A stretch of 64,000 nt of DNA, from contig JAQCGX010000005.1 in assembly GCA_027619975.1 (NCBI GenBank), forward strand, positions 1-64,000, written 5' to 3'. The stretch's first letter is position 1; every line of letters begins with the position of its first letter. Positions 908-29,889 of the stretch are shown here, in pieces. The notes beneath the pieces are model-generated. The model was given only the letters and a program-made list of their open reading frames with translations, ran no database searches and was not told the DNA's origin. Origin of the DNA: Nitrospinota bacterium. Its GTDB lineage: Bacteria; Nitrospinota; Nitrospinia; Nitrospinales; VA-1. The position numbers and the translations under genes are program-made.

Positions 908-3133
908 TTAAAAATTGGGGTGAACAGGGGCATCGGTCTGGATGGGGGTGTAATTCACCAACGGCGGCTGAGGTGGCAGAGTGTAGTCCCCCGGATGAAA
1001 AACTTTCATCAAACCTGAAGGTTGAAACGGCCAGATGTTCTTGAGTTGGTTTTCAGGTTGCTTGCCTTTAAAAACCAGAGCCCCGTATTTTCCATAATGA
1101 GGCAGCTTACGGATCAATCCCGGAATGCTTTCGCCTGAACTGACGATCACCCAGGTGATGGAGCCCGCAATCTTACCGGGACTGCGAACGGTAAATACAA
1201 AACTGTGGTCCTCCCACGGAAACGATTCACCGGCAATGACTATCTTATCCTCAAAAAACTCCACACCATAATCTTCCAATTGCGGTTGCAGGTGTTTCGC
1301 GTATGCATTTTTCCGGCCAAAAATCCAGAGACCCCCTTTAGGGAGGGGAGTGGATTTTGCATCGTCCAGCAAATATCCCGATGATTTGTTGTCCTCAACA
1401 AGGGACAATGAAAACTGATGATAGCCCAAAAGGACATCTGGAAAATCTTCCTGGATCGGCAAAATCCGTGAGGGGAGGGGGTAGCCGTAGGTTTGCCCGA
1501 TGGAGGGAGGAACTTCCTCGTGATCCAGTTTTCGAAAAATTTCCGTGTAAGGGTCGATCAGTACCTTGCCAGGTTCATCAGGCAAATGAAAGGAGTGCGT
1601 GAGAGTTTTCTGCGTCATGTCCAATTGTTTGATTTGTGGCGCCAGGGACCCTTTTGTCCAAACAGCTACCGGCAGGGTGAGAGGAAACGCCGGGCCGGAC
1701 TGCTTTTGTTGAACTTCGATTTGCAGGCGATGTTGTCCGTCCTCGAAAGTATGTGTCGCGGATATCAGTTCCAACTCAGGCGCTTCTCTACGGTACGTCC
1801 AATGATCGAAAAAAAGTGACAGGTCTTTTCCCGAAGCGGATTCAAACGATTGTCTCAGATTCGACAATCCTGCATGTCGAAACTGGTTGTCGCGGTAGAA
1901 TTCGCGCAGGGCTTGTAGAAAAGCCGCATCGCCCACCTGCAATCGCACCATGTGGAGCATCATCAACATCTTGCCATAACCTATCGCCTGAGAGGCCATG
2001 CTGGTGCGCGATTTAAAGCTGATCAAGGGAAAATCATTGGCCTTGTTTACGTAACTCAAAAAATTCATCAATTGTTGCAATCGGTACTGGTTGCCTTGTC
2101 CCTGCAATTCTGTCAGTAAATGGTCGGACAGGTATGCGGTCAACCCCTCCGCCCAGTTGCCGCTATCGGGGTCTATGTAGACACTGTTTCCCCACCAGTT
2201 GTGCAAGATTTCATGGGGGTAGGAGGTGTTCAGTATAAACGGAAAACGAATGACCTGGGAGCCGAGCAAAGTGAAAGAAGCCATTCCGTAACCGGTTTGC
2301 ATTGCATTTTCAATCAAGGCAAATTTGGGATAGGGATAGGGGCCTATCAGCTTTGCATAGAAATCCAGATACTTTTTGGCGGCGGAAAAATAGGTTTCGG
2401 CCAGGTCGGGGTCCTCTTTTAAAAGATAAGCATAGAAGAGAATGCCGCCGTGTTGTCTCTCGTATTCTTTAAACCGATTGGCGATTAAAAAAATTTCTTC
2501 CATCGGGTCGGTGGTTTCCCAAACGACCTGATTGCCGTTTTTGGATTCCGATATTTTTCGTCCCTGGCTCACCACCTTCCACCCGTCGGGGTGGAGCACG
2601 GTGAGTTGAAAGGTCATGAGGTCCGGGGCCTCTTTTTGCCGCAGAGTTTGCGGATAAAAATAGCTGGCTCCGTTCAGGAATATTCCCTCCCCGGAGCTTT
2701 CAGTGTTTTCCGGGTTTTGTGGATCAAATATTCTGCCACCATACTGAAACTCAATTTTTAAATACTCGGGCCAGGGGTGATCGGTAATTTTTCGAATGGA
2801 TATTTTTGTGAGCGGTGGGTCTTCCTCGGCATTCCGGGCCGGTGTGGTTTCAATTATAAAATCCTTGTTATCGGGAATTTTGATTTCAGCCAGCCCGAAA
2901 TTGGCGTGCAGAAAAAGTTCCAGGACGAAATCATTTTCCTGCTTCAGATGGAGGATCAGGGTGTCCTTGATCTGAGCGGATTTTTGGACGGGGTCCAGAT
3001 TCACCATGACATTGTGATGGTGAGGAATGGGATTGGCGAAGGAACTCCCGGACAATGTGATGACCAGCCAAAAAGCGCCTAAAGCAAGTCGGCAAATGGG
3101 TTTCAAAAATTTTATTTTATCCAACGATTGCAT
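908..3133 (-). CDS. M1-family (gluzincin) metallopeptidase-like protein, secreted
   Basis: A 741-residue exported protein starting at the ATG at 3133 behind a G-rich Shine-Dalgarno; a TTG codon directly upstream is less likely. A hydrophobic signal segment spans about residues 12-33. The zinc motif HEILH lies near residues 307-311 and is followed by NWAEGLTAY, supplying the downstream glutamate ligand, the HExxH-x18-E pattern of the M1 family. The usual GAMEN substrate motif is replaced by GYGMA, so it may not act as a typical aminopeptidase. The C-terminal 200 residues resemble no domain I recognise. Its start overlaps the end of the upstream NusG-II gene by 17 bases, so the two are probably co-translated as part of the recG group. 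Confidence 0.8.
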   Translation of the reverse strand: MQSLDKIKFLKPICRLALGAFWLVITLSGSSFANPIPHHHNVMVNLDPVQKSAQIKDTLILHLKQENDFVLELFLHANFGLAEIKIPDNKDFIIETTPARNAEEDPPLTKISIRKITDHPWPEYLKIEFQYGGRIFDPQNPENTESSGEGIFLNGASYFYPQTLRQKEAPDLMTFQLTVLHPDGWKVVSQGRKISESKNGNQVVWETTDPMEEIFLIANRFKEYERQHGGILFYAYLLKEDPDLAETYFSAAKKYLDFYAKLIGPYPYPKFALIENAMQTGYGMASFTLLGSQVIRFPFILNTSYPHEILHNWWGNSVYIDPDSGNWAEGLTAYLSDHLLTELQGQGNQYRLQQLMNFLSYVNKANDFPLISFKSRTSMASQAIGYGKMLMMLHMVRLQVGDAAFLQALREFYRDNQFRHAGLSNLRQSFESASGKDLSLFFDHWTYRREAPELELISATHTFEDGQHRLQIEVQQKQSGPAFPLTLPVAVWTKGSLAPQIKQLDMTQKTLTHSFHLPDEPGKVLIDPYTEIFRKLDHEEVPPSIGQTYGYPLPSRILPIQEDFPDVLLGYHQFSLSLVEDNKSSGYLLDDAKSTPLPKGGLWIFGRKNAYAKHLQPQLEDYGVEFFEDKIVIAGESFPWEDHSFVFTVRSPGKIAGSITWVIVSSGESIPGLIRKLPHYGKYGALVFKGKQPENQLKNIWPFQPSGLMKVFHPGDYTLPPQPPLVNYTPIQTDAPVHPNF

Positions 3134-14561: not shown

Positions 14562-14750
14562 CAGGTTGCTGAAAAAGTCCCAAACACGAGGGTTTCCACT
14601 GTTGTCATGCTGAGCTTGTCGAAGTATGACCTTGATGTAAGGGCTGTTTTCACATTTCGACATACCCCTCTGGGGCATGAAGGCAATTGTCGAATATCAC
14701 AAGCTCAGTGTGACAGTTGTGGCTAGCAAGAATAGTTTTTCAGCGACCTG
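14562..14750. mobile_element. MITE-like element, family II copy 1
   Basis: A 189-bp non-coding element bounded by imperfect inverted repeats, CAGGTTGCTGAAAAAG at the left and TTTTTCAGCGACCTG at the right. It is flanked by direct TTAG repeats at 14558-14561 and 14751-14754. The interior holds divergent palindromic arms (TGAGCTTGTCGAAG type). It matches the element at 54870-55014. It encodes no transposase, so it would need one supplied in trans. Confidence 0.8.
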
Positions 14751-24405: not shown

Positions 24406-25032
24406 TTATTTATTATAACCCAAAACGTCTTGAAAAATAAGGTCTAAATTTTTAGTCATTACATCCACATCCCCTTTCGAGATACTGGGAGTCACTTTTA
24501 GAACATCGTTGATAATGAGAGTAGGGGTTTCATTGGCGTTGTACTTTTTGGCTAATTCCAGGCATTCCTGGGCTTTAGCCTTGATTTTTGGAGACAGCAT
24601 GCCGGCTTCCATTTCCTTTTCGATGCCGTGGTCCTTGGCCAGAAACTTTATCACTTTTGACTGAAAAACATTGATATTCAGCTTGAAATTGGTATCGAAA
24701 AGGTCCTGAGTGAACTTTTCCTCCATGCCCAGTCCGTCAGCGATATAGAAGGCCATCGATGGGTAAGGGGTTTGACTGCCCCAGTAGATGGGGAATTTGA
24801 TGTGATGCAATTTATCCTTATATTTTTCCTTGAGTCCTTTGGAGGTTTCCAGAAACTTATAGCAATGGCCGCAGGAATAGTTAAAAAATTCTTTTAGCTC
24901 AATGCTTGTAGCGCCTTTCAATTTTTCCAGGTCGCCGATCACTTCATAGTTGCCACGGATTTTATTGTCCGCAAACGAAGGCGCTGGGATCAGGAAAGCG
25001 AGTGCAAGCAGAATGGCGAAAATGTGTTTCAT
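24406..25032 (-). CDS. dsbA: Thiol:disulfide oxidoreductase DsbA
   Basis: A 208-residue periplasmic thioredoxin-fold oxidase that introduces disulfides into secreted proteins. The signal peptide ends at the PAPSFA cleavage site. The active site C54-GH-C57 lies in FFNYSCGHCYKF and the cis-proline loop reads NETPTLIIN. The helical insert between them has the usual DsbA length. AGGAG lies ahead of the ATG. It is upstream of ctpA on the same strand with an 84-base gap. Together with the pair at 15.1-16.9 kb it gives this window two independent disulfide systems; no dsbB was seen. Confidence 0.9.
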   Translation of the reverse strand: MKHIFAILLALAFLIPAPSFADNKIRGNYEVIGDLEKLKGATSIELKEFFNYSCGHCYKFLETSKGLKEKYKDKLHHIKFPIYWGSQTPYPSMAFYIADGLGMEEKFTQDLFDTNFKLNINVFQSKVIKFLAKDHGIEKEMEAGMLSPKIKAKAQECLELAKKYNANETPTLIINDVLKVTPSISKGDVDVMTKNLDLIFQDVLGYNK

Positions 25033-25194: not shown

Positions 25195-26634
25195 TTAATG
25201 TTTAATTTTTTCCCAGTATGTATCGAAGTTGAACCGGGGACTATGGTTTTTGACGTGGCAGTTTTTGCAGGCTTGCCGAGCATTCTGGCCGAATCCCGCC
25301 GCCGGGGCTTCGGAGTGGTTCAACGCCGGCCCATGACAAACCTCGCATTGAACGTTTTCAAGCTCGGGCGTGTCGATTTCACTGATAAACCCTCCCGCTT
25401 GATTCCACCCGGTGACGTGACACGCGAGGCATTCAGGGTCAAAAGCCTTGTTGACCTTTCTCAGCGTATTATAAGCCTTTCCGTGGCGGGAATGTTGCCA
25501 GGTTTTATGGGCTTTGGGATGACAGGTTTTGCATACCGTTTCCGTCGCAAACAATTTTTTCTTATTATTCTTGCGTTGGGATAAGGAGGTGAAGAACAGT
25601 TCCTCGACCTCTTGGTTGTAGACTTCGTATAATGCGGTCATTTTCGGGCTGATGGCAACCCTGGAACCCAGGGGGATCATTTTTTGTGCAAACGATTTTT
25701 GTCCCTGCGAGTCCACTCCTTCGCGGAGGGCGGGTTTACTCACGCCAGACAACGTTTTCTGGTTGTCATGCGAACCTTTTCGCTGAACCTCAAAGGTGAC
25801 CAGCAGTTCGCCCATTTTTTGTCCTCTGGGACCCGGCTGGACAAAAATTTTACCGTTTTTAAGCACTGGGTTCATGTCAATGGCATCTGTATCTTTTTCT
25901 ATATGGCCGTTGATCACCACATCGACACCTTCAATATCCAGATAGCGCAGGGCCTTGTCCCGGTCCATATGGGTGAGAAGCACGATAAGATCAGGGGTTT
26001 TTGTTTTTGCAAGCGCACGGATTTGTGATTCCACCGCTTCTTTGGGATTTGTCACCTGCATCTCTGAATGATGGCTTCCGTAAAGCAGATCCGGGTCGGC
26101 GACAGCGATCACTGCCGCGTTTAAATTTTCACCGAAAGCTTTGACCCGTACCTTGGCGATGGGCAGGGAGGACTCCATATTACTCAAAACCCAGGGAATT
26201 CCTTCCTGCTCGCTGATAAAAGCATTCCCGTAAACGAAATCGTGATCGCCAAAAGTCACTGCGTCATATTTCATCTCACTCATGGCTTGCATCAGGTACT
26301 TGGCTTTAATTTTTCCCTGGCGGGTGGGTTCCTTGAAGTTGTCACCGGTATCAACGATCAGTGTGTTTTTTGCGCGGGTTCGGACCGCTTCCATATAACC
26401 CATCCGGCGCTCGATGCCCCCCTGATCTTCCTCCTTGGAACAACCGCAGGGTTTCAATTCACCGAGGGTATTGCCTGAATAAACGATGAGGATCTGTCGG
26501 GGCTCATTTTCAGGATCAGTTGCCTTTGAAGCGGCCATGCCCGATCCAGAAACGGTCACAACGGCCCAAAAAAGCAGGACGTTCATTTTTCTTGTCAGAG
26601 GGTTCAAAGGGAGGAGAGTCTTAAAAATATTCAC
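25195..26634 (-). CDS. Metallophosphoesterase-like domain fused to tetraheme cytochrome c (c554-like)
   Basis: A 479-residue exported protein. A signal segment is followed by a 5'-nucleotidase (UshA)-type fold containing VDTGDNF, TFGDHDFVYG, LLTHMD and INGHIE. The first metal motif of the family (DxH) is replaced by SGNTLGELKPCGC, with CGC and GGIERR as seen in a cysteine-bearing subgroup, so hydrolase activity is uncertain. The C-terminal 110 residues carry four heme sites: CKTCH, CLACH, CEVCH and CKNCH. A redox role in the periplasm is likely. I start at GTG 26634, six bases after AAAGGA; an ATG at 26586 is possible but lacks a ribosome site. Confidence 0.8.
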   Translation of the reverse strand: MNIFKTLLPLNPLTRKMNVLLFWAVVTVSGSGMAASKATDPENEPRQILIVYSGNTLGELKPCGCSKEEDQGGIERRMGYMEAVRTRAKNTLIVDTGDNFKEPTRQGKIKAKYLMQAMSEMKYDAVTFGDHDFVYGNAFISEQEGIPWVLSNMESSLPIAKVRVKAFGENLNAAVIAVADPDLLYGSHHSEMQVTNPKEAVESQIRALAKTKTPDLIVLLTHMDRDKALRYLDIEGVDVVINGHIEKDTDAIDMNPVLKNGKIFVQPGPRGQKMGELLVTFEVQRKGSHDNQKTLSGVSKPALREGVDSQGQKSFAQKMIPLGSRVAISPKMTALYEVYNQEVEELFFTSLSQRKNNKKKLFATETVCKTCHPKAHKTWQHSRHGKAYNTLRKVNKAFDPECLACHVTGWNQAGGFISEIDTPELENVQCEVCHGPALNHSEAPAAGFGQNARQACKNCHVKNHSPRFNFDTYWEKIKH

Positions 26635-26691
26635 AAATGATCCTTTAATCAAAAGAATTCCTCGTAGCTCTGCTACGGGGTTTCCTTTCAC

Positions 26692-27897: not shown

Positions 27898-28005
27898 GCA
27901 TAAATAATCGCAAACAAAACTGTAAGGATGGCGAAACCCTCCCGACTTGACTCCAGTTCGATAGTTCACGGTTTTTTTATAAATCTGTAAATTGATGGAG
28001 GTCTC

Positions 28006-28284
28006 ATGAAAAAAAATATTGCTCTGCGCTCGGCAGTTGCAGGGGTGGTCGCTCTTGGATTCCTGGTCGCTGGAACCCCTTCCATGGCTGGTGACAAGCA
28101 TGAAAAAATGAAGATGGAAGGCGAGCATTGCTATGGTATTGCCAAGGCAGGAATGAATGATTGCAAAAGCGGAATACATGGATGCAAGGGAAAAGCCAAA
28201 GCCGATGGCGAGAAGGATTCCTTCCTCGTGGTTCCTCACGGGACCTTCGCCAAAATCGTGGGCGGTTCCACCAAGGCGGGATGA
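28006..28284 (+). CDS. bufA: Bufferin-type RiPP precursor (DUF2282 / BufA1-like), three-cysteine variant
   Basis: A 92-residue exported precursor. The signal peptide ends near GTPSMAGD. The mature part matches the DUF2282 (BufA1) family: EHCYGIAKAGMNDCKSGIHG then VPHGTFAKIVGG. Cysteines are C42, C53 and C60. The fourth cysteine, which family members carry in a VPxGTC motif, is Phe81 here (codon TTC). Bufferins are copper-binding peptides in which MNIO enzymes modify cysteines. TGGAGG lies seven bases before the ATG. The stop overlaps the start of the MNIO gene (ATGA), fixing the operon order precursor-enzyme-partner. No metal-responsive operator could be recognised in the 108-base leader. Confidence 0.85.
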   Translation: MKKNIALRSAVAGVVALGFLVAGTPSMAGDKHEKMKMEGEHCYGIAKAGMNDCKSGIHGCKGKAKADGEKDSFLVVPHGTFAKIVGGSTKAG

Positions 28285-29135
28285 ACGATTTCGACACAAA
28301 ATTCCCAGGCCCGATTCCGGCGAAAGCCGGAATCGGGTTGCGGGCCCGGCATTACCGGGAAATTCTTGAAACCCTGCCCCCGATAGGATGGCTGGAGGTT
28401 CACAGCGAAAATTTTTTCAGCGACGGCGGTCAACCGCTTTTCTACCTGGAAAAAATTCGCCCTCACTATCCCCTGAGCCTGCACGGTGTGGGTCTGTTTC
28501 TTGGGTCTACAGACCCACTGAATCGGGTTCATCTGGGCCATCTCAAATCTCTCATCGAACGATTTGAACCGGATCTGGTTTCCGAGCATTTATGCTGGGG
28601 GTCGGTGAACGGTCGCTTTTTAAACGACCTGTTGCCGTTGCCTTATACGGAGGAGGCCCTGGATCATTTCTGTACGCGCGTTGATCAGGCGCAGGAATTT
28701 CTAGGCCGCGCCCTTTTGATCGAAAATGTTTGCAACTACCTGCAATACAAGCATTCCACCATTGCCGAGTGGGATTTCATCGCCGAAGTCTCCCGCCGTA
28801 CAGGTTGCGGAATTTTGCTGGATGTGAATAACATTTATGTGAATGCGATGAACCAAAAATTTGACTCGGCAAGTTATTTCCTGTCTATTCCGATAGACGC
28901 AGTCCGGGAAATTCACCTGGCCGGGTTTGACTCTAATGGCGATTGTTTGATCGACACCCACGGCCAACCGGTCTGGGAAGAGGTGTGGGATCTGTATCGG
29001 CAAACGCTGAAATGGTTTGGCAATGTTCCCACCCTGATCGAGTGGGATACGGATGTCCCGGAGCTGTCCGTATTGTTTGCCGAAGCGGGTAAGGCCGATG
29101 CCATCCTGAGGGAGAATCATGCCTGCTCTCAGTGA
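28281..29135 (+). CDS. bufB: MNIO-family (DUF692) RiPP-modifying enzyme, BufB-like
   Basis: A 284-residue TIM-barrel multinuclear non-heme iron oxidase. These enzymes oxidise cysteine side chains in RiPP precursors; in bufferins the product is a thiooxazole. Family motifs with the metal ligands are present: LEVHSENFF, SLHGVGLFLGS, SEHLCW, LIENVCNYL, LLDVNNIYVNAMN, EIHLAGF, DTHGQPV and EWDTDVP. The open frame continues 40 codons upstream through bufA in another frame, but the ATG at 28281, overlapping the bufA stop, matches the start of the family. It overlaps bufC by 17 bases. Confidence 0.9.
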   Translation: MNDFDTKFPGPIPAKAGIGLRARHYREILETLPPIGWLEVHSENFFSDGGQPLFYLEKIRPHYPLSLHGVGLFLGSTDPLNRVHLGHLKSLIERFEPDLVSEHLCWGSVNGRFLNDLLPLPYTEEALDHFCTRVDQAQEFLGRALLIENVCNYLQYKHSTIAEWDFIAEVSRRTGCGILLDVNNIYVNAMNQKFDSASYFLSIPIDAVREIHLAGFDSNGDCLIDTHGQPVWEEVWDLYRQTLKWFGNVPTLIEWDTDVPELSVLFAEAGKADAILRENHACSQ

Positions 29136-29889
29136 ACTGCAATTGGGGTTTGCTGAAGCCATATTCAGCGGCGATGGGGCGAAATTTTTGCTGAACCTTG
29201 TGCCGGGGGAGTTGAGCCCCGAGCGCCGGGTGGATATCTACCGCAATAATGTTTTCGGATGCCTGACCGATGCCCTTAAAATGGCTTATCCGGTGATTGT
29301 CAAACTTGTCGGCGCCGATTTTTTTGAGTACCTGGCGGCAGAATTTATTCGTCAAACTCCATCCAAAAGCGGAAACCTGCATAATTTTGGCCGGGAAATG
29401 GCCGAATTTTTGCCGAATCTGCCTGAGGCCGCGAAATTGACCTATCTGCCCGATGTGGCTCGACTGGAGTGGGCCTGCAATGAGGTGTTTTTTTCTGCGG
29501 ATCATCCACCCCTGAAACTTAATCGTCTGGCCGAGGTTCCCGAAGACCAGATCGGACATTTGAAATTTCATCTGCATCCCGCCACCCGCTTGATTTTCTC
29601 AGATTACCCCGTCCATTTAATTTGGCAAACCAACCAGGAGGATTATTCCGGTGATCCTGTCATCGACCTGGATCAGGGTGGGGTGGCCATTCTGGTGAGG
29701 AGAGAAGCGTATCAAGCGGTTCTTCAGCCGGTGACAGCGGCGGAATGGGCTTTTTTGACCTCCCTGCGGGTCGGGAGAGATTTGTCATCCGCGAGCGATG
29801 CCGCGCTTTCAGCGGACCCGAAATTTGATGTTGCGGCGGCATTGAGACAGTTTGCGGCCGATGCCATTCTCGTGGATTTTTCCCTGTAG
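29119..29889 (+). CDS. bufC: DUF2063 protein, BufC/HvfC-like partner of the MNIO enzyme
   Basis: A 256-residue cytoplasmic protein. The N-terminal part (LSELQLGFAEAIFSGD, VDIYRNNVFGCLTDALKMAYPV) is the DUF2063 domain found next to DUF692 enzymes; it serves as the substrate-recognition partner, presenting the precursor to the MNIO enzyme. The C-terminal half (from about residue 150) is the more variable domain seen in longer BufC proteins, with two predicted strands around IWQTNQEDYSGDPVIDLDQG. It overlaps the bufB stop by 17 bases and ends the operon. I found no DoxX-type membrane gene (bufD) after it. Confidence 0.88.
   Translation: MPALSELQLGFAEAIFSGDGAKFLLNLVPGELSPERRVDIYRNNVFGCLTDALKMAYPVIVKLVGADFFEYLAAEFIRQTPSKSGNLHNFGREMAEFLPNLPEAAKLTYLPDVARLEWACNEVFFSADHPPLKLNRLAEVPEDQIGHLKFHLHPATRLIFSDYPVHLIWQTNQEDYSGDPVIDLDQGGVAILVRREAYQAVLQPVTAAEWAFLTSLRVGRDLSSASDAALSADPKFDVAAALRQFAADAILVDFSL

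Follow-up and report, generated by a model that had tools for sequence, protein, structure and literature searches.

The bufABC operon and its neighborhood

Within the window (the whole 64,000-nucleotide stretch of Nitrospinota DNA analyzed here), we find three overlapping genes on the plus strand that make up a bufferin-type operon. The first, bufA (28006-28284), encodes a 92-aa bufferin precursor of the DUF2282 (Buf1) family (PF10048, 66.6 bits, E = 1.9e-18, cut-off 22.4). The second, bufB (28281-29135), encodes a 284-aa MNIO enzyme (DUF692; Pfam MbnB_TglH_ChrH; PF05114, 357 bits, E = 7.6e-107), and the third, bufC (29119-29889), a 256-aa DUF2063 partner protein (PME type 1; PF09836, 79 bits, E = 3.1e-22); both matches lie above their cut-offs. 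The overlaps are 4 bp between bufA and bufB and 17 bp between bufB and bufC. Coordinates, overlaps, and Pfam assignments all bear out the three-gene operon proposed in an initial annotation of this DNA, and the Buf1 order of precursor, MNIO, and DUF2063 partner recurs unchanged in the orthologous loci.

The BufA N terminus has a basic start, a hydrophobic stretch, and SMA-GD, which by eye suggest a putative Sec-type signal sequence. No relatives of the precursor were found in viral contigs, and no solved structure matched it at E values up to 1. The genome has one DUF2282 match and one MNIO match, bufB being the sole MNIO gene found. BufB retains all 49 of the positions that are >90% conserved among 167 homologs, i.e., the signature positions of bufferin MNIOs, and BufC is without deviation at its eight most conserved positions (8/8). 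As initially claimed, no bufD-type (DoxX) gene adjoins the operon; a search of the rest of the assembly (96.6% complete) likewise gave no DoxX match.

A few kilobases upstream of the operon, on the minus strand, lies a gene for a DsbA-like periplasmic thioredoxin-fold protein with a CGHC motif (24409-25032), which also occurs in a congener (G001, locus L008). The gene is intact, so a missing oxidase is no evident cause of the cysteine loss described below. Also on the minus strand (25195-26691) is a gene for a 5′-nucleotidase-like protein with a C-terminal cytochrome c-type multiheme region (several CxxCH motifs); it adjoins a PHP-domain gene both here and in G001.

A putative promoter element

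Upstream of bufA we note a putative ECF-sigma-type promoter element, GTAAGG-N15-CGAC (27922-27946, plus strand), its function being predicted from the motif. All six Nitrospinota bufA genes (including loci L002-L012) have GTAAGG-N15/16-CGAC in the corresponding upstream position, and the 64-kb window contains two matches where 0.10 would be expected by chance. The element resembles the Caulobacter sigma-F promoter motif GTAACC-N16-CGAA, which drives DUF2282 operons (PMC3511200). A scan for sigma-70 promoters gave nothing above chance on the strand of the operon.

The motif is also seen outside these loci. Exact matches occur in some non-Nitrospinota bufferin loci (e.g., L021, L063, and L312), and a looser form occurs in the window at 14637-14661. 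In the same genome there is a match in contig C26 (G000:C26, L331) and another in contig C12 (G000:C12:39674-39699; L330, 1501-1526), the latter directly preceding what by eye are an AhpD-like (CxxC) gene and, after it, a DUF3179-like gene. It is possible that this AhpD-like/DUF3179-like locus and bufABC form a shared stress regulon.

The fourth cysteine and adjoining residues

Buf1 bufferins, which belong to the proposed captophorin class (PMC12452194, PMC13097082), in general have four conserved cysteines (PMC12452194). It is the central cysteines that are modified, and a disulfide joins the first to the last (PMC12452194, Fig. 3 legend); the modification is a 5-thiooxazole, which binds copper (PMC12452194; PMC13097082).

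The BufA described here has cysteines at positions 42, 53, and 60 and, within a VPHGTF motif, phenylalanine at position 81 (TTC, 28246-28248), just as the initial annotation read them. Both central cysteines are present, although presence is not modification: C53 (28162-28164, plus strand), in NDCKS, and C60 (28183-28185, plus strand), in GCKGK, are the predicted MNIO targets. With Phe at position 81 the set of four conserved cysteines with a first-to-last disulfide is incomplete, and we therefore file the peptide as a Buf1-type variant and not as a canonical Buf1. The substitution makes the C42-C81 disulfide impossible and leaves C42 partnerless.

The syntenic operons of two congeners (G001 and G004) encode VPHGTC, which marks the loss as lineage-specific. 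Two further changes, on which the initial annotation was silent, accompany it. Residue 41, directly before the first cysteine, is His here (H41, CAT, and C42, TGC; 28126-28131, plus strand), whereas Lys is conserved at this position in 95 of the 97 nearest homologs; the five Nitrospinota relatives all encode it with AAA or AAG. At codons 81 and 82 (TTC and GCC; 28246-28251, plus strand) those five relatives have TGC or TGT at the first and GAC, GAT, or AAC at the second, so that residue 82 has gone from Asp/Asn to Ala. Differences from the common state amount to two bases in codon 41 and one each in codons 81 and 82, four in total.

When the 49-residue core is compared with the five Nitrospinota orthologs, three changes alone are peculiar to this species: K41H, C81F, and D82A. 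None of the three is more than one residue away from C42 or C81, and the remaining core is unchanged; the probability of three randomly placed core changes all falling so close to these two cysteines is 0.0011, a value computed post hoc.

These data bear on whether codon 81 reflects an artefact of sequencing, assembly, or strain mixture in a metagenome-assembled genome. The species is represented by a single assembly (72 contigs, 1.05% contamination), the congener G001 is itself a MAG, and the step from TGC to TTC is one base. The initial annotation had linked a sequencing error to the presence of cysteine in close relatives, and the congeners do have the cysteine. We do not take this as a sign of error, however: codon 82 and, by two bases, codon 41 also differ from every Nitrospinota relative, at structurally adjoining sites, and both the frame and the gene overlaps are intact. 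Errors falling at random would not gather around one structural site, as these four base differences in three codons do in an otherwise unchanged core. We consider an artefact improbable, but with one genome to represent the species, a change confined to the strain or the assembly is the weakest point of the case.

Loss of the fourth cysteine across the family

An alignment of the 97 nearest homologs agrees with the earlier claim that the family carries Cys at position 81: The fourth cysteine is present in all 97. We extended the DUF2282 set with further genomes, including two samples of ~400 genomes each from one class and its phylum, and also collected lower-scoring matches to avoid missing degenerate members. 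This gave 313 near-complete domains (~259 clusters at 90%). The central cysteines C53 and C60 are replaced in none of them (Cys in 313/313 at each site). Genuine replacement of the fourth is seen in two, this BufA and that of locus L107, a rough frequency only, as the sample is nonrandom with respect to score.

L107 (genome G280) belongs to a distant lineage, in whose class DUF2282 was found in just one of nine genomes. Its precursor (ORF 1471-1773, minus strand) has Val at the first cysteine and Ser at the fourth, keeps the central pair, and sits in a complete bufABC operon. The outer pair can thus be lost while the modified pair is kept. Retention of C42 without its partner, as seen here, is unusual; L107 has lost both outer cysteines.

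Several apparent losses were rejected on inspection: In L149, L224, and L151 the fourth cysteine is shifted by a few residues, in L228 the first is displaced, L148 and L322 are split rows, and L225 and L085 are fragments. The DUF2282 frame of L322 (G1066:C6) is broken by a TAG stop and is probably a bufferin pseudogene.

Distribution and selection

Among the 77 Nitrospinota genomes searched, DUF2282 is present in six and MNIO in seven, one of the MNIO matches being weak and partial. Of the named relatives, a Nitrospinaceae MAG (JAJDAZ010000059.1) comes closest; it matches G001, which belongs to the same genus. In both G001 and G004 the operon lies behind the same PHP-domain gene, and the order 5′-nucleotidase-like gene, PHP gene, bufABC is common to this genome and its congeners, whose four-cysteine orthologs are 79%-80% identical to this BufA. 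The genus counts five genomes, and two of them are without the DUF2282 operon.

All three genes are under purifying selection. Compared with the two congeners (Nei-Gojobori), dN/dS is 0.08-0.09 for bufA, 0.10-0.13 for bufB, and 0.16-0.19 for bufC, against 0.07-0.08 for the neighboring PHP gene in the same comparison; these values are approximate, since synonymous divergence is >1, and as averages over the whole divergence they are blind to recent loss of function.

The patchiness of the operon in the phylum and its absence from part of the genus would fit functional decay, in which this species has lately ceased to need the peptide and C81F is a first step toward loss of function; so would the loss of a near-universal residue whose partner is kept. 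Against this, the frames are open, dN/dS is low in all three genes, the BufB signature residues are fully conserved, and so is the promoter motif, while the changes in BufA cluster at one site and are not scattered. On balance, decay seems unlikely.

Interpretation of the three-cysteine precursor

Judged from sequence comparison, then, what we have is a lineage-specific loss that goes with intact central cysteines and enzyme, purifying selection, and a retained promoter motif. Although a single assembly represents the species, this looks like a real variant, not like an error or a gene in decay. The observation itself is confirmed: in a known RiPP family, this is a rare variant that looks functional.

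Our preferred reading, to which we give a probability of roughly 0.6, is that of a real, natural Buf1 variant in which C53 and C60 are still converted to copper-binding thiooxazoles, the C42-C81 disulfide is gone, and C42 is free. With the central pair, the enzyme, and its partner all intact, unchanged modification without the disulfide is the simplest reading. BufB, together with BufC, would oxidize C53 and C60 of BufA to thiooxazoles, and these would bind copper in the periplasm. Without C81 the C42-C81 disulfide cannot form, and C42 would remain a free thiol, enter an intermolecular disulfide, or become a metal ligand; the neighboring residues 41 and 82 have changed along with the loss of C81. 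That this BufA is modified, that it serves in copper binding, and what becomes of C42 are inferences.

The first of the two interpretations offered in the initial annotation (modified pair intact, disulfide lost, one cysteine left free) is thus the best reading. Its account of a Buf1 operon whose fourth, disulfide-partner cysteine is lost while the central pair is intact and C42 is partnerless holds on sequence and literature; the oxidation of the pair stays a prediction.

The position of H41 directly before the freed cysteine could point to a retuned metal site, the kind of change in metal preference raised by the second interpretation, in which C42 and H41, perhaps with H78, form a new ligand set with changed stoichiometry or preference. 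H78, three positions ahead of F81, is shared with the disulfide-bearing congeners. The only other His before the first cysteine among the 97 homologs, in L079, occurs with an intact fourth cysteine, however, which indicates that His at this position is not tied to the loss, and we regard retuning as improbable. A related sequence of events, in which the fourth cysteine was lost first and adaptation at the same site followed, with C42 and H41 as an extra metal ligand or C42 as a third heterocycle that alters metal stoichiometry or preference, is likewise improbable.

Returning to the variant with unchanged modification and no disulfide, we note that the family can shed a cysteine described as general to it and still keep the modified pair and the enzyme intact. 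Together with L107, which lacks both outer cysteines, and the four-cysteine congeners, this one-loss form makes up a natural series in which to ask what the outer disulfide does in Buf1. For the wider picture this matters only modestly, since the chemistry has probably stayed the same.

Comparison with known bufferins

With Buf1 bufferins such as bufferin 1 of Caulobacter vibrioides, this locus shares the bufA-bufB-bufC order with overlaps, a DUF2282 precursor with a putative signal sequence and both central cysteines, the MNIO and its DUF2063 partner, and an ECF-type promoter motif upstream. Unlike them, it has Phe for the fourth cysteine, which rules out the first-to-fourth disulfide, and His in place of Lys before the first cysteine; no DoxX gene is linked to it or found in the genome. 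The two-cysteine precursor of L107 has in common with it a complete bufABC, retained central cysteines, and the lost fourth cysteine, but differs in the loss of the first and in having Ser at the fourth, and comes from a different, distant lineage. The Buf_EGKCG oxazolins/fontiphorins also pair an MNIO with a DUF2063 partner, which in their case makes 5-thiooxazoles on Lys-Cys motifs; by description, they differ in having EGKCG repeats without the DUF2282 fold.
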